This document shows, one piece after another, positions 8,816-19,942 of a stretch of 38,423 nucleotides of DNA. The first letter of the stretch is position 1, and every line of letters begins with the position of its first letter. A model generated the notes under the pieces. That model was given only the letters and a program-made list of their open reading frames with translations, ran no database searches and was not told the DNA's origin. The position numbers and the translations under genes are program-made. Source of the DNA: a virus; the IMG/VR virus record IMGVR_UViG_3300027826_000013, positions 1 through 38,423 of that record, one strand, 5' to 3'.

Positions 8816-10546
8816 ATGCCGACAGACTTCCCCGGCGTGCGGTGGAGCATCGGGTCCGACGATTACGTCGAACACGTCAACGCGACGGTGAGGTCCGCGA
8901 CCTCGCCGTGGCTTCCATTGCAATCCGCCAAACAAGGCGGGTTCGACTCCGAGTTCGGTTCTCAGAACGCTCCGGTTCAGCCGGCTGTGAGCATTTCGCA
9001 CCGGGACGTTTCAGGCATCGTCCGCGACTTTTTCGGCAGTGAACTCTTTGAAAAAATCATCGTCATTCCGCGCGTGAAGGCGCTCGGTTTCGTTCTCTCG
9101 GCGACGCAGTTCAGCGTCGAAGTCTGGAACACTTTCCACGGCACGCAGCAGACACTCACGGCGATCAACATCACCGGCACCGGCGGACTCGTGCTGACCG
9201 ATCCATTCGGAGAGCCTCTGGTCTACTCGGCGATGGATTCGCGAATTTATCAGGCGACCGTCCCATCGGCAGGCGCAGCTCAGATCAACCAGACCGTCGC
9301 ATTTGTTTTCGTCTCCGGCGTCCTCGGCGCTGATCTCCTGATCACGGGGTCGCGGATCACACTCTTTTCGGTCGCTCCGCAGTGGAGCGAAGGGATGGAG
9401 GAGACGTTCGAATTCCTCACGGACGTGCTCGTGGCTTACTCCGATGCCGAGCAGCGCCGCGCCTTGCGCCAGAAACCGCGCCGCGCTATCTCGTTCCGCG
9501 CCTTGACGCTCAACGCGCGCGATGCCGCGGGAATGGAGTCTCTCGTCTGGGGATGGCAAAACCAGCCTTATGGCGTCCCGTTCTGGCCGGACGCGCAGCC
9601 TCTCGGCTCTGACGTGCCCATCGGCTCTTTCACGATCCCGGTGGACACGACCAATCGGCTTTTTGCGGCTGGTGGTCTGGTGGTGATCTGGAAAGATGAG
9701 TTCACCTACGAGGCGCTGGACATCCAATCGCTGACCGACAGCGCCATCACCGTAAGCTCGCCGACGCAGCTCGCATGGAAGGGCGGTCCCGGCGTGCGGG
9801 TCGCTCCGGTGTTTCTCTGCAGAATCCCGGATTCGCAGGATATTTCGAGGTTTAGCAGCGAAATCGATCAGGCCGACCTGTCCTTCATCCCCGAGGCCGC
9901 GCAGCCGTCACCGGCTCCCGCGATCTCACCCACTCAGTACAAGGGCTTCGACGTTCTCGAAATCTTTCCCAATTGGGCCGATGCGCCGCTCCGCCGCACC
10001 TACAAGCGGTCGCTCGTGACGGCAGATCCCAAAATCGGACCGATTGAAGTCATCGACAAGGGCGGCAGCGCGGTGGTGCAGCACGAGTTCCCCTGGTGGC
10101 TCGACGGGCATGCGAACATCACCGCCTTCCGCGCGTTCATGCTCCGGCGTTTCGGGCGCTTCAGCGCTTTCTGGTGTCCGACGTTCGATCAGGACCTCGT
10201 GCTCGCGAACGACGTGCTGTCGACCGATTCCGGCATCAGGATCAAGAACGAGTTTTACACTCGGTTCTTTTTTCCGAGTCCCTCACGGCGCTACATCGCC
10301 TTCATCCCCATCGACGGCTCCGGGAACGTCTACCGGCAGATCACCGCCGCGCACGACAACGGCGATGGCACAGAAAACCTGACGCTCGACGCGCTACCGG
10401 GGAAGAACTTCCCGGCGGCGTCGACGATGATTTCTTTCCTCACGTTTGGCCGGCTCGCCGAGGACAAGGTTTCGATCAAGTGGGATCACTCTGATCACGC
10501 TGAGTCGCTGGTCGCAATTCAGGAACTTCCGAGGGAACTGCCATGA
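8816..10546 (+). CDS. Tail-tip structural protein C (distal tail / hub-associated)
   Basis: A 576-residue protein beginning at ATG 8816 directly after the previous TAG. The sequence is globular and beta-rich, with a charged region DAEQRRALRQKPRRAISFR near residue 220 and aromatic-rich segments (EFPWWLDGHANITAFRAFML, RFFFPSPSRRYIAFI). The repeated theme in which an input profile of a beta domain is followed by a pattern R(A/R)FML(R/x)RFGRF suggests duplicated halves like those of some phage tail hubs. It precedes the BR0599/DUF2163-like hub gene and overlaps its ATG by 4 bases. Function inferred from position only. Confidence 0.72.
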   Translation: MPTDFPGVRWSIGSDDYVEHVNATVRSATSPWLPLQSAKQGGFDSEFGSQNAPVQPAVSISHRDVSGIVRDFFGSELFEKIIVIPRVKALGFVLSATQFSVEVWNTFHGTQQTLTAINITGTGGLVLTDPFGEPLVYSAMDSRIYQATVPSAGAAQINQTVAFVFVSGVLGADLLITGSRITLFSVAPQWSEGMEETFEFLTDVLVAYSDAEQRRALRQKPRRAISFRALTLNARDAAGMESLVWGWQNQPYGVPFWPDAQPLGSDVPIGSFTIPVDTTNRLFAAGGLVVIWKDEFTYEALDIQSLTDSAITVSSPTQLAWKGGPGVRVAPVFLCRIPDSQDISRFSSEIDQADLSFIPEAAQPSPAPAISPTQYKGFDVLEIFPNWADAPLRRTYKRSLVTADPKIGPIEVIDKGGSAVVQHEFPWWLDGHANITAFRAFMLRRFGRFSAFWCPTFDQDLVLANDVLSTDSGIRIKNEFYTRFFFPSPSRRYIAFIPIDGSGNVYRQITAAHDNGDGTENLTLDALPGKNFPAASTMISFLTFGRLAEDKVSIKWDHSDHAESLVAIQELPRELP

Positions 10547-11340
10547 GTTTTGATTCCGTCGAAAAATCCGGCGCGACCGCACAGCCATACGAGCTCTATC
10601 TCTTCCAGACGACCGGGCTGAATTTTGCTTTGACCAACTCTCCCGATCCGATCACCCATCTCGCGCAGGTCTACGCGCCCACCACCATCACGCGGACGGA
10701 ATGCGAAATTTCGAACGAAGTCGTTTCGGGCCAGATCAAAATATACATTCCGAACGACCACCCGCTCGCCGAGCTCCTCATCCCGTACCTGCCGAGCGCG
10801 CCCATCGCCGTGACGATTTTCGGCGGACACTTCAACGACGGCGAGGTCGCGGTTCTTTTCACCGGGGAAGTCGCATCCGCGCGCTTCACGGACGAGTGCG
10901 AACTCACCTGCAATTCGGCGCAGTACCTGCTCCAGCGCAAAATCCCGCAGCAGCTCTACCAGTCACCGTGCTCGCACATTTTTGGCGATCCGGGATGCGG
11001 CGCTGATCTCGGGCAGCACACCTACGCGGGAACGATCAGCGCGATTGATTCCACGGGGACGATCCTCACCATCCCGGCTTTCTCTTCTCTCCCCGATCCG
11101 CTGACGGGCGGCTATTTGAAGCACGGCAACGATTACCGCATGATCGTCGCGCAGTCCGGCTCGACGGTGACGCTGATCTCCGCAATCAGCGGTCTCGGCG
11201 TGGGCGCTGCAGTGTCCGGCATCGCCGGATGCAATCTCGACTTTTCCGCCTGCCAGCACTACGGCAGGCAAAGCAGTTTTTTGGGGTTCGATCTGATTCC
11301 GACGATCAACCCATTCGATGGGAGCGCGTCGATTATCTGA
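10543..11340 (+). CDS. Tail hub protein, DUF2163/BR0599-like, probable Fe-S binding
   Basis: A 265-residue protein. The N-terminal two thirds is beta-rich (ITRTECEISNEVVSGQIKIY). The C-terminal part carries cysteines C143, C152, C230 and C237 in the patterns SPCSHIFGDPGCGAD and GCNLDFSAC, followed by FLGFDLIPTINPF, a motif shared by phage BR0599-type proteins and the gene-transfer-agent hub. Related lambda gpL and the GTA hub bind an iron-sulfur cluster through four cysteines. The spacing here (9 and 7) fits that type. It would sit at the tail tip around the tape measure end. Stop TGA at 11338-11340 is in frame with the next gene. Confidence 0.78.
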   Translation: MSFDSVEKSGATAQPYELYLFQTTGLNFALTNSPDPITHLAQVYAPTTITRTECEISNEVVSGQIKIYIPNDHPLAELLIPYLPSAPIAVTIFGGHFNDGEVAVLFTGEVASARFTDECELTCNSAQYLLQRKIPQQLYQSPCSHIFGDPGCGADLGQHTYAGTISAIDSTGTILTIPAFSSLPDPLTGGYLKHGNDYRMIVAQSGSTVTLISAISGLGVGAAVSGIAGCNLDFSACQHYGRQSSFLGFDLIPTINPFDGSASII

Positions 11341-11406
11341 CGAGCTCCAGAGGGCGGTGCGATCTTCTTCTGGCTACTGTTACTACTTTTCGTCGCGACA
11401 ACCGTA

Positions 11407-14217
11407 GTGGGCGCGCTGCTCGCTCCTCATCCGCAGGGGCCGCAGCCGTCGGCGCTCGGGGACTTCTCCGTCCCGACCGCGGAAGAAGGGCGCGCGATCC
11501 CGGTGGTGTTCGGGACGTGCATGATCAAAGGCGGAAACACGGTCTGGTGGGGCGACCTCAAATCGAAAGCCATCAAGGTGGGCGGCGGAATTCTTTCGTT
11601 CGGGCGCACGCAGACCATCGGTTTTAAGTACTACCTCGGACTACAGTTCATGCTCTGCCACGGTCCGGTAGACGCGCTCGTGGAGATTCAGGCTGACGGG
11701 AAAACCGTTCCCGGCACGCAGAGCGTGGTGGACAACGGAAACGGGTCAGAGAACTACATCGACTTCGAGGCGACCGGCGACAAACTTTTCGGCGGCACGG
11801 GTCCGGGCGGCGGCGGCGGAATGTCCGGGACGATCCGGTTCTACCGCGGTTTGCAGACGCAGCAGCCGGACGATTATCTCGGCGCGAAGCAGGGCCGGGT
11901 CACGACCGACCAATCCGGCATCGGCTACACGTTCCACGGCGTGGGCAATGGTGGAATCACTTCGCTCTCCGCCGGGAGCTCCTCGCTCGAGGAGACGTTC
12001 ACGATCACATTCAACTCTATCGACGGGAACGTCTCGCACTCGACTTTCGGAAAGGCAAAGTGGGACATCGTGGGTTCCGTCTCCGGCGCGCTCTCGAACA
12101 GCGTCGCGAACGCGGAAGGCTCCCACGCGCTCTGGTCCGATCAGGCTTTTTCGAATTCTCGGATCAACGTCACGATCCACACCGGCTCGACGCAATACGC
12201 CAGTGGCGACTTCTTCACGATCAAGACGCTGCATTCTCAGGTCGCGCCGACCTATCGCGGTCTCTGCTATGCGGTGTTTAAGCAGCTCTACGTGGGGACT
12301 TCGAACTACCTGAAGCCGCCTGCGTTCATCGTTCGCCGCTGCCCGAATCCGCTCGGCGCGAGTTCGGGGTTCAACATCTCGGGCGATGCGAACCCGGTCT
12401 ACTGCATCTACGAAATCCTCACGAACGTCGACTACGGTTTGGGCATCGATCCGTCGCGCATCGACGCGACTTCTTTCTCGACGGCTGCAGCGACGCTCGC
12501 GTCCGAGGCTCTCGGCATTTCGATGATGTTCGACCAGCAGGCGAGTGCCGATCAGCTGATCGGTGAAATCCTCCGCCACTGCGATGGCGTGCTCTACACC
12601 GATCCGCAGACCGGCTTGTGGACGGTCAAGCTCGCCCGCGCCGACTACGATCCCACGACGATCCCGGTGCTGACGGTGGACTCGGTTCTCGGAACGCCGG
12701 ACTTCTCCCGTGGCTCATGGCGTGAAACCACGAACCTCGTGAACATCCGCTACTCGTCGCGCGCTGCGAATTTCGACGACCGCTCCATCCGCGCTTACGA
12801 TCCGGCGAACGTCGCCGTCACCGGCGAGGTCCGTCCGCAGAACATCGACTTCAAAGGTCTCAGCAACGCGACCAGCGCCGCGCTCGTGGCGACACGCGTA
12901 CTCAAGACGCTCACCTACCCTCTGGCGAAGATGAAGATTGTCGCGAATCGCAACGCGTGGCAGTTCCGTCCTGGCGGAGTGTTTCGCTTCACATGGGTTC
13001 CGCTCGGCGTCGTGAATCAGGTGTTTCGGATCACGCGCATCTCCTACGGCGAACTGCTCTCGGGCAAAATCAGCATGGACGTGGTGGAGGACATCTTCGG
13101 GATCAACTCCGTCGCGTTCGTCTCTCCGCCAAGCTCGGGCTGGACGAACCCGGTAGGCGCTCCTCTTGCTAATTCTCACGAGCACGTCGAAGAAGCGCCG
13201 CTGCACTTGCTGATGGTGGAGGGTCTCACTCCGGGAACGTTCGGCGTGGCTGTCGCCTCGCACGCACTTGCGACGGCCGCAAACGACTACCAGGTCTGGC
13301 GCGATGATGGCGCAGGGTTCGCCGACACCGGGTTCCGCTCCGCTTTTTGTCCGGTGGGAGTTCTCGCCGCGGATTACGGACCGGCGGGAGACGCTCTCGA
13401 CACCACCGGCTTTACGCTCACGAGCGCTTCGATTGACCTCGCACTTCTCGAATCCTCGACGGACGCCGAGCGCGAGGCCGGCAAGAACCTCCTGATGCTC
13501 GTGGGTCCGAATGGCTGGTATGAAATCTGCGCGTGGGAAAACATCACCGCGAATTCGGACGGCAGCTACACGGTCTCGAAGATTCTCCGCGGCGTGTTCG
13601 ACACGACGCCTCTGAAGCATTCCGCCGGAGCGCTCGTGTTCTTTTTCTCGGACGGCTCCTCGCTGACAAACAACGTGCCGGTCGCGGACAACTCGACGAT
13701 CAATGCGCGTTTCCTGCCGGAGAATTCTCTGGGCGTGCTTCCCATCTCGAGCGCGGCGACAAACTCCTGCACCACTCGCTCGCGCTACAAACGTCCCTAC
13801 CCACCGGGGAATCTTCGGATGCAGGGGCAGGCTTATGGCGTTCGCTACACGACCATCGTGGGCGATCTGGTGCTCGCCTGGTCGGAGCGCAATTCGAACG
13901 TCGCCGGACTGACTCCGCTGACGCATCAGGATCACACGGACATCACCGCTCCGGGGACGGTGGGGTGGGCTGTCGACGTTTCCATCGGCGGCGTGTCTGC
14001 AGGGGCTGAAGTCTCGGCTCCAACGAAAACCGTCACGATCACCGCGGCGGCTCGCGCGGCGATGTCGGTTGGAGCAGGCGACGATCCTCTTGACGTGGAC
14101 GTGTTCGCGCTCGACTCGGTGAGCACGCTCTACTCGTTCATGCCGCAGCGCGCAACGGTGATCTTCACCGGGTTCGGAATGACTTTTGGCGAATACTTCG
14201 GAGGGATTCAGCAATGA
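11407..14217 (+). CDS. Tail-tip central protein with phage-tail_3-like domain
   Basis: A 936-residue protein from the GTG at 11407, probably longer. Opening residues LGDFSVPTAEEGRAIPVVFG and NTVWWGDLKSKAIK are typical of large tail-tip proteins carrying the putative phage-tail_3 domain. Residues about 178-277 hold a beta domain shared with the 6611 product. The central part matches the fold region with RPQNIDFKGLSNA and QFRPGGVFRFTW. In this family a membrane-like segment (IFFWLLLLLFVATTVVGALL) usually precedes the part that starts at 11407, and it is encoded here at 11362-11421 with GAGGG at 11350-11354, so translation may begin at ATC 11362. Likely forms the tail tip that contacts the host. 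Confidence 0.85.
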   Translation: MGALLAPHPQGPQPSALGDFSVPTAEEGRAIPVVFGTCMIKGGNTVWWGDLKSKAIKVGGGILSFGRTQTIGFKYYLGLQFMLCHGPVDALVEIQADGKTVPGTQSVVDNGNGSENYIDFEATGDKLFGGTGPGGGGGMSGTIRFYRGLQTQQPDDYLGAKQGRVTTDQSGIGYTFHGVGNGGITSLSAGSSSLEETFTITFNSIDGNVSHSTFGKAKWDIVGSVSGALSNSVANAEGSHALWSDQAFSNSRINVTIHTGSTQYASGDFFTIKTLHSQVAPTYRGLCYAVFKQLYVGTSNYLKPPAFIVRRCPNPLGASSGFNISGDANPVYCIYEILTNVDYGLGIDPSRIDATSFSTAAATLASEALGISMMFDQQASADQLIGEILRHCDGVLYTDPQTGLWTVKLARADYDPTTIPVLTVDSVLGTPDFSRGSWRETTNLVNIRYSSRAANFDDRSIRAYDPANVAVTGEVRPQNIDFKGLSNATSAALVATRVLKTLTYPLAKMKIVANRNAWQFRPGGVFRFTWVPLGVVNQVFRITRISYGELLSGKISMDVVEDIFGINSVAFVSPPSSGWTNPVGAPLANSHEHVEEAPLHLLMVEGLTPGTFGVAVASHALATAANDYQVWRDDGAGFADTGFRSAFCPVGVLAADYGPAGDALDTTGFTLTSASIDLALLESSTDAEREAGKNLLMLVGPNGWYEICAWENITANSDGSYTVSKILRGVFDTTPLKHSAGALVFFFSDGSSLTNNVPVADNSTINARFLPENSLGVLPISSAATNSCTTRSRYKRPYPPGNLRMQGQAYGVRYTTIVGDLVLAWSERNSNVAGLTPLTHQDHTDITAPGTVGWAVDVSIGGVSAGAEVSAPTKTVTITAAARAAMSVGAGDDPLDVDVFALDSVSTLYSFMPQRATVIFTGFGMTFGEYFGGIQQ

Positions 14218-18159: not shown

Positions 18160-18207
18160 GCGCGCGGCTCCTCAACAAGACAACTCTCCCTTGTGTGAGC
18201 CGCGCGC
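18160..18207 (+). promoter_or_regulatory. Strong 11 bp hairpin in the recombinase leader; attP candidate
   Basis: GCGCGCGGCTC (18160-18170) pairs perfectly with GAGCCGCGCGC (18197-18207). An inner ACAAG/CTTGT pair (18175-18179 with 18190-18194) lengthens the stem. There is no T run, so it is not a clear terminator. The span of 48 bp, dyad symmetry and location beside the recombinase resemble an attP of large serine recombinases, though a leader attenuator is equally possible. Confidence 0.45.
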
Positions 18208-18225
18208 AGAAAGTGGAACGAGTGA

Positions 18226-18396
18226 GTGTCGGACCGCCAGCCTGGTCTCGTGGATGCGTTACTCGAAGTGGGACGGCAGCGCCAGCAAGTCCTCGCGAAT
18301 CTTCGAAGTGCTCTCGAAAGGAACGACCTCGAGAGTGTATGGCGATGCGTGGAGCAATTGCTCGGGAAGGAGAGTCCGCGTGAAGAAAGTCATTGA
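18226..18396 (+). CDS. Small protein upstream of the serine recombinase
   Basis: A 56-residue ORF from GTG 18226, overlapping the recombinase start by 17 bases. It reads as a plausible helical protein (VSDRQPGLVDALLEVGRQR, then QVLANLRSALERNDLESVW and a charged end). Composition resembles real small phage proteins rather than a shadow frame. The start lacks a strong ribosome site. Short proteins of this sort are, from memory, seen next to such recombinases in related bacteria. It may be a recombinase accessory factor. Confidence 0.45.
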   Translation: MSDRQPGLVDALLEVGRQRQQVLANLRSALERNDLESVWRCVEQLLGKESPREESH

Positions 18397-19942
18397 ACTG
18401 ATCCGCGTCTCGACTCTCGGGCAGGCCGCTGACGACCGGGCCAGCATCCCGGCGCAGCGCGCTGTGAACCGCCGAACAGCTCAAACCTTCGGGCTGACCA
18501 TCACAAAAACAATCGAAATGACGGACGTCTCAGGCGCGGCTGTGCTCCGCACTCCCGAGATGCAGGAACTTCTCCGTCTGATCTCGGCGGAGGAAATCCA
18601 CGGCGTGGTGGTGCGCGAGTTCTCGCGCGTCATGCGCCCAGACAACTTCAGCGACTACATTCTCTTTCAGGCGTTTCAGGACACCGGGACGCTGCTCTAT
18701 CTGCCGGACGGTCCGCTCGACCTCAACACCAAAACGGGAAAACTTGTTGCGGGTCTGCGCGCGATCATCGCAGGGAACGAGCTCTCTGAAATCCGCGAGC
18801 GAATCTGGGTCGCGAAGGAGAGCAACCGGCGCGCGGGGAAGCACTCGCAGAGTCCGATCTGTCTCCCGTTCGGCGTGGGCTATTCGCGCGAGCAGGGTTT
18901 CTTCTACAAACCAGAGGCAGAGCGCGTGCGCGAAGCCTACCGGCTGCTGCTCTCCGGCCAGCACAGTTACGTCGACCTCGCGAAACTCCTCGGCTTCACC
19001 GGGCAGGGCGCGCGGATCACGCTAACAAATCCGATCTACATGGGCTGGCGGGTGTACGATAAAAAACGCGACATGCGTCCGGGAGCGCGGCGCTGCTCCG
19101 CCGACGGACGTCAGGGCGACCGGAAAAAAATCGCTCGCGATCCCGACGAGGTGATCCGCGTGAAGGTCATCGATCCGCCGCTCGTTTCTGAGTCCGATTG
19201 GAAGCGCGCGCAGGAAATCATCGCGACCAAGATTCGCCGCCACTGGCGTCACCGCTCCGGCGTCACTCCCCAATTCACCTACAACGGCTTTCTCATCTGC
19301 TCGGACTGCGAAGGGTCCGTCTACGGCATGAACTGCAGGCGCTTCTACTACGTCTGCTCTCGCCGGATTCGGGACCGCGAACGGTGCAGCGCAGGATACA
19401 TGGGACGCGACCGCCTCGAGCAAAAGCTCGACGGCATGTTCGCGGAGAAATTCACGGACCGGACGTTCATCACCGATCTGCTCCGGGACGTGGAAGCGAA
19501 GTCCGAAACGACGAACGCGCGCGAGCGCATCGCTCGGCTCGAACTCGAGATCAGGAAACTCCGGGAGAAGCGGACGCGGGTACTCGACTCGTTTTTCGAG
19601 GGACTGCTTTCGCGCGCTGAACGGGATCAGCGGCTCGCCGACGTGGACACGCGCATGCGTGCCACCGAGGAAGCTCTCCTGCGAGAGGCTCCCGTGCCAC
19701 GCGTGACGGCGCGCTCGCTCATGACGGCGTTTGCTCCGCTATTCGATTGGCAGTACCTCAACCGGGAAAGCAAGAGGCGGATTCTGGCGGTGACGGTCCC
19801 CGAGATTCACGTCGCGAACTACTCGGTTCGCGGCGTCTCGGTGACCTCACCGAGTTTTTTCAGCGACAACGAAAGCCGCATCCATGCGGGTTCCCTAATC
19901 GCTGAAAAACCGGACCGCATCTTCATCCCGCTAAACCTCTGA
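18380..19942 (+). CDS. Large serine recombinase (phage integrase type)
   Basis: A 520-residue site-specific recombinase. GTG 18380 has GGAAGGAGAG at 18365-18374, so in-frame upstream codons are discarded. The resolvase domain holds the catalytic serine in IRVST (S11) and the arginines in REFSRVMRP (near residues 79-87). The recombinase domain spans about 180-290 (GVGYSREQGFFYKPE, NPIYMGWRVYDKK). A zinc-ribbon region with CSDC and YVCS, C cysteines lies about 306-345, followed by a coiled coil from about 370 to 430. All parts of the family are present. It would integrate or excise the genome by att site recombination. A tyrosine integrase lies 1.4 kb downstream. Confidence 0.93.
   Translation: MKKVIELIRVSTLGQAADDRASIPAQRAVNRRTAQTFGLTITKTIEMTDVSGAAVLRTPEMQELLRLISAEEIHGVVVREFSRVMRPDNFSDYILFQAFQDTGTLLYLPDGPLDLNTKTGKLVAGLRAIIAGNELSEIRERIWVAKESNRRAGKHSQSPICLPFGVGYSREQGFFYKPEAERVREAYRLLLSGQHSYVDLAKLLGFTGQGARITLTNPIYMGWRVYDKKRDMRPGARRCSADGRQGDRKKIARDPDEVIRVKVIDPPLVSESDWKRAQEIIATKIRRHWRHRSGVTPQFTYNGFLICSDCEGSVYGMNCRRFYYVCSRRIRDRERCSAGYMGRDRLEQKLDGMFAEKFTDRTFITDLLRDVEAKSETTNARERIARLELEIRKLREKRTRVLDSFFEGLLSRAERDQRLADVDTRMRATEEALLREAPVPRVTARSLMTAFAPLFDWQYLNRESKRRILAVTVPEIHVANYSVRGVSVTSPSFFSDNESRIHAGSLIAEKPDRIFIPLNL

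Follow-up and report, generated by a model that had tools for sequence, protein, structure and literature searches.

A candidate non-canonical start codon conserved in the tail-tip gene of a phage clade

The tail-tip gene in IMG/VR record IMGVR_UViG_3300027826_000013 raises the question of where its translation begins. In the 38,423-nucleotide stretch analysed here (the window), the gene follows the TGA stop codon 11338–11340 of an upstream tail gene, and no ATG, GTG or TTG is present in frame between this stop and GTG 11407. Elsewhere in the window, genes begin at ordinary start codons. The initial annotation proposed that AUC initiates, that TGA readthrough joins two tail genes, or that a base is wrong. 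The first option is the best supported of the three, with 11362 as the probable P-site codon and the adjacent TTC 11365 as its rival. Judging from the comparison of related sequences, the tail-tip gene probably starts at the non-canonical AUC 11362, which is GUC in most relatives and AUU in one.

Organization of the locus and the tail-tip protein

The features of the locus are listed below.

10543–11340, + strand: upstream tail/baseplate-hub gene (phiJL001 Gp84-like / BR0599, phrog_778), with stop codon TGA 11338–11340
11341–11361, + strand: intergenic spacer of 21 nt; in relatives mostly 16–23 nt (range 9–52), in all three frames
11350–11359, + strand: Shine-Dalgarno (SD) region GAGGGCGGTG, with a clade-conserved GGTG core at 11356–11359
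11362–11364, + strand: ATC, most likely the non-canonical start codon, at which the profiles of phrog_1101 and phrog_1180 start
11362–11424, + strand: N-terminal hydrophobic segment IFFWLLLLLFVATTVVGALLA, homologous to PDB 8vjh chain U (Tail assembly protein 1)
11365–11370, + strand: TTC TTC, the first of which is the rival start codon; third positions frozen clade-wide
11407–11409, + strand: GTG, the earliest canonical codon in frame, not accepted as the start; unconserved and without a ribosome site
11362–14217, + strand: tail-tip protein gene (phrog_1101, Phage-tail_3, Rcc01698_C)

Downstream of TGA 11338–11340, the same frame reads CGA GCT CCA GAG GGC GGT GCG ATC TTC TTC TGG and stays open to 14217. 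As the initial annotation stated, the frame is open up to GTG 11407; reading on from 11362, ATC TTC TTC TGG CTA CTG encodes IFFWLLLLLFVATTVVGALLA. The sequence GAGGG indeed occupies positions 11350–11354 and ends 7 nt before ATC 11362, and GTG 11407, preceded by ttttcgtcgcgacaaccgta, lacks a ribosome site. The membrane-like segment, which the initial annotation called usual in the family, is included in the family profile: traced back to their first position, phrog_1101 and phrog_1180 start on 11362 or no more than one residue away.

The tail-tip protein matches phrog_1101 at an E-value of 1.7e-208 and scores 48.4 bits against PF13550, for which the cut-off is 23. Its homologs in PDB entries 8rk3 and 8vjh, in phrog_1101/phrog_1180, Phage-tail_3 and Rcc01698_C are likewise placed after a phrog_778 gene. 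However, among the cultured relatives inspected the gene begins with ATG or is annotated with an ordinary start, unlike in the clade of the window, and YuA and other cultured phages encode the ~76 N-terminal residues in a gene of their own, unlike the window. The homolog of this N-terminal piece is a chain of its own in a solved complex with the minor tail protein (8vjh_U with 8vjh_A), and therefore the N-terminal segment probably belongs in the virion. The separate ~76-residue gene (L005, L094, L095) is labeled a tail assembly chaperone in PHROGs, whereas the homologous chain 8vjh_U was solved with a minor tail protein.

Start codons and nucleotide constraint among relatives

Relatives were found by comparing the protein and three DNA patterns with viral contigs, and one DNA pattern with genome contigs. 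The clade is composed of 38 contigs sharing the N-terminus, including the window, from many metagenomes. They contain 32 distinct N-termini, which were aligned on the conserved TTCTGG. In the protein tree, the 38 rows of the main group form one clade (support 88/78); L054 (TTG GCT) adjoins it, and L016 (TTG) is nested inside.

The codon at 11362 is GTC in 24 of the 32 distinct N-termini, ATC in three and ATT in one (L012), so that a rare codon is kept in 28 of 32; GCC, ACT, ACC and TTG (L016) occur once each. At 11365, TTC is present in 29, and ATC, ATT and GCG (L016) in one each. Neither position carries ATG or GTG anywhere in the clade, and the single TTG is that of L016. Contigs L002 and L011 have no canonical in-frame start from the preceding stop up to the well-conserved inner motif ALGDF, and L055, L057 and L073 have none up to NTVWWGD. 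In the more distant relatives L004, L077, L105 and L106, ATG is located exactly at the 11362 position (MPFW, MGFW). Other relatives have ATG mostly abutting the upstream stop (TAAATG), without an SD. A second, more distant group (L055, L057/L073, L072, L078 and the long-branched L017) also lacks a canonical start there; its SD is ~5–8 nt from the codon equivalent to 11362, and its origin is possibly independent.

In a tree of 30 leaves, codons −26 to −9 have each undergone 4–15 third-position changes (mean 9.2), with the protein conserved. This saturation of third positions with synonymous change, in a conserved protein, shows that the hydrophobic segment is translated. At codons 11362, 11365 and 11368, the same tree contains 2, 2 and 0 third-position steps. 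GTG accounts for none of the 24 Val codons at 11362, versus 37% of those at other sites of these genes (naive P of 1.4e-5, for rows that are not independent and with relatedness ignored); TTC accounts for 78% of Phe codons elsewhere in these genes. The frozen third positions and the absence of GTG at 11362 therefore indicate that the stretch beside the ribosome site is constrained as a nucleotide sequence. By this comparison, single mutations that would create a canonical start are avoided.

The string RYY-TTC-TTC-TGG (11362–11373 in the window, and relatives) is frozen at third positions clade-wide, and neither a hairpin nor an Rfam family explains it. A hairpin sequestering the SD with the frozen TTCTTC was rejected, since it formed 5.1 pairs on average versus 4.9 with shuffled upstream sequence, and an Rfam search for a known RNA element gave no match. 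A scan with the pattern GGTGN{4,5}TTCTTCTGG was too unspecific to use.

Alternative explanations of the open frame and of the start position

Readthrough or frameshifting past the upstream stop would fuse two tail proteins, or the ribosome could hop over the spacer; we regard this as very improbable. The tail gene is in frame with the upstream stop in the window, as the initial annotation pointed out, but the agreement is coincidental: the window is one of only 8 contigs among 35 in which the frames agree, a share that does not exceed the one-in-three chance expectation, and the frames differ in the other 27 (+1 in 14 and +2 in 13). The conserved same-frame relation of a readthrough gene is thus absent. 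The spacer of 9–52 nt contains no conserved slippery, take-off or landing sequence, TGA is immediately 5′ of GTC in seven contigs, and relatives with ATG are not fused. Since the frames vary and TGA adjoins GTC in these seven contigs, readthrough, frameshifting and hopping are excluded as a conserved mechanism, and the proposal that TGA readthrough joins the two genes is refuted. Translation from an internal canonical codon, with the hydrophobic segment not made, is likewise highly unlikely. GTG 11407 is the first canonical codon of the tail frame in the window; however, it has no ribosome site and is replaced by GTT in L002 and GTA in L013, and L002 lacks a canonical codon until inside PVVYGT. 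Furthermore, the hydrophobic segment shows the substitution pattern of a coding sequence, and the family profile includes it. A sequencing or assembly error hiding an ATG has nothing in its favor beyond the doubt that attaches to any single contig, and its probability is negligible, as the feature is common to a whole clade of independent contigs and to a bacterial metagenome-assembled genome (MAG). The presence of GTC, ATC or ATT at the same place in independent contigs from many metagenomes excludes the suggestion that a base is wrong.

Three further candidates were considered. A start at the GTG inside GGTG followed by a frameshift was rejected, as the distance between this GTG and the tail frame differs by one base among contigs and TAG comes next in L002. 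The out-of-frame upstream ATG at 11318 was rejected as a start, being lost in L002 and L013 (GAC). A phage-encoded altered initiator tRNA was rejected as well, as no tRNA was found in the window or in 42 related loci, which are mostly fragments.

The choice between 11362 and 11365 is closer. The GGTG core is 1–2 nt ahead of codon 11362 in 30 of 32 distinct N-termini (automated count). In the main clade, the SD core (GAGG/GCGG of ...GGTG) is 3–4 nt from 11362, which is short for initiation, and 6–7 nt from 11365; SD spacing in other genes is spread over 3–11 nt and is not decisive. Codon 11362 is GCC, ACT or ACC in three members and thus has no middle U there, and the third positions of 11365 and 11368 are frozen, which plain second and third codons would not need. 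A less likely reading is that initiation takes place one codon later, at TTC 11365 (UUC; AUC in L026/L037, AUU in L070 and UUG in L016), and that RYY at 11362 is part of the ribosome-binding site. This reading accommodates the spacing, the exception codons at 11362 and the frozen third positions. Codon 11365 also has a middle U in all 32 members except L016, whose SD-anchored counterpart is TTG, and relatives with ATG or GTG often start here (MFW; L051, L058, L062, L064 and L065; GTG in L059 and L060). In the protein alignment, however, the starts of the nearest canonical relatives (L016, L054) and of the distant L004, L077, L105 and L106 coincide with 11362. To our knowledge, no natural UUC start has been described. 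UUC matches the initiator anticodon at the middle base only, and it formed no 30S initiation complex in the presence of IF3 in a reconstituted E. coli system (PMC7907450). In short, SD spacing and the exception codons favor TTC 11365, and biochemistry and precedent favor AUC/GUC 11362. We consider it rather improbable that initiation takes place at UUC 11365, or is largely codon-independent, as set by the fixed element GGUG-N1-2-RYY-UUC-UUC-UGG rather than by codon–anticodon pairing; if true, this would be a new way of starting translation in bacteria.

Precedents, host and possible function of a putative weak start

The gene infC, which encodes IF3, starts at AUU/AUC. The tail-tip gene resembles it in having a near-cognate start codon with an SD, and the ATC form of infC occurs in the host class of the only identified prophage. 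However, infC is an autoregulatory host gene, and no feedback loop is evident for the tail protein. Our start-finding approach recovered the expected non-canonical ATC of infC in this class, which served as a positive control. Like infC and sigR, the tail-tip gene has no canonical start at its conserved N-terminus. The GTC start of Streptomyces sigR, called the first documented gene using GTC, is repressed by IF3 (PMC5472188). In sigR, the GTC start goes with a very strong ribosome site, AGGAGGTG, that contains a decoy GTG; it is conserved in a genus and misleads annotation (PMC5472188). The tail-tip gene resembles it in these respects, with GTC as the probable start codon in most relatives. 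In contrast, sigR is a cellular sigma factor gene, its GTC is farther from the SD than the 3–4 nt found here, and IF3 control is proven for sigR, whereas it is inferred for the tail-tip gene. Predicted cases in phages are the AUU start of TP-J34 orf28 (terS), which also has AAGGAGGT (PMC3952083), and the GTC start of RsoM1USA ORF35 (PMC6389784). As far as the relevant parts of these reports go, both are single-gene predictions for other functions, and clade-wide conservation is not reported there. In a limited search of the open-access literature, no conserved non-canonical start came to light for a phage structural gene, and a clade-wide one looks new.

The only clade member from the genome collection (L081) lies on a contig of 159 kb that belongs to a soil MAG of the class Terriglobia (Acidobacteriota). 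Relatives of most window genes are located together at 35.4–75 kb of this contig, circularly permuted with respect to the window, in a prophage region flanked by Lon, CstA and GGDEF genes. The serine recombinase encoded at 18191–19942 of the window maps to the edge of this prophage. The recombinase (L086–L091 region, 35.4–75 kb) adjoins the permutation point, which suggests that the phage is temperate and that its attP is near 19.94 kb. The phage of the window itself may thus infect Terriglobia. In Terriglobia, an SD in infC is followed by ATC, or sometimes by ATT or another near-cognate, and the conserved core is usually reached without any canonical start. Since the host infC itself has this arrangement, the host can be expected to apply IF3-type control to near-cognate starts. 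Standard gene finders would mis-annotate these infC genes (L108, L109–L137), whose starts appear to be ATC or other near-cognates.

We propose that a ribosome-binding site with the conserved GGUG core, ~20 nt past the stop of the preceding gene, places the start at 11362. The initiator tRNA would mispair at the third base and, for GUC, form a G·U pair at the first. Because of this mispairing, inefficient and IF3-sensitive initiation is expected, in the manner of infC and sigR. The weak codon may be offset in part by the strength of the ribosome site and by ribosomes that come from the upstream gene, and the expected outcome is that this low-copy protein, hydrophobic at its N-terminus, is made in small, capped amounts. 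AUC/GUC is therefore probably a weak, IF3-sensitive start that limits tail-tip synthesis. We infer that fMet is the first residue, that IF3 exerts control and that the start has a role in stoichiometry. The ATG that abuts the upstream stop without an SD in other relatives would be another arrangement expected to be weak, and low output of a tail-tip protein with a hydrophobic N-terminus may be selected.

Gene finders will truncate the gene or misplace its start clade-wide, losing the membrane-like N-terminus. The natural series of start variants (GTC, ATC, ATT and TTG, with the exceptions GCC, ACT and ACC) would then allow direct tests of start selection, SD spacing and IF3 discrimination. About thirty related sequences retain a rare codon at the probable start of a gene that is called essential, and this conservation suggests a built-in brake on the amount of tail-tip protein. 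If our interpretation is right, GUC/AUC initiation extends from a few cellular regulators to a clade-conserved phage structural gene, and its clade-wide retention would imply selection against a normal start.
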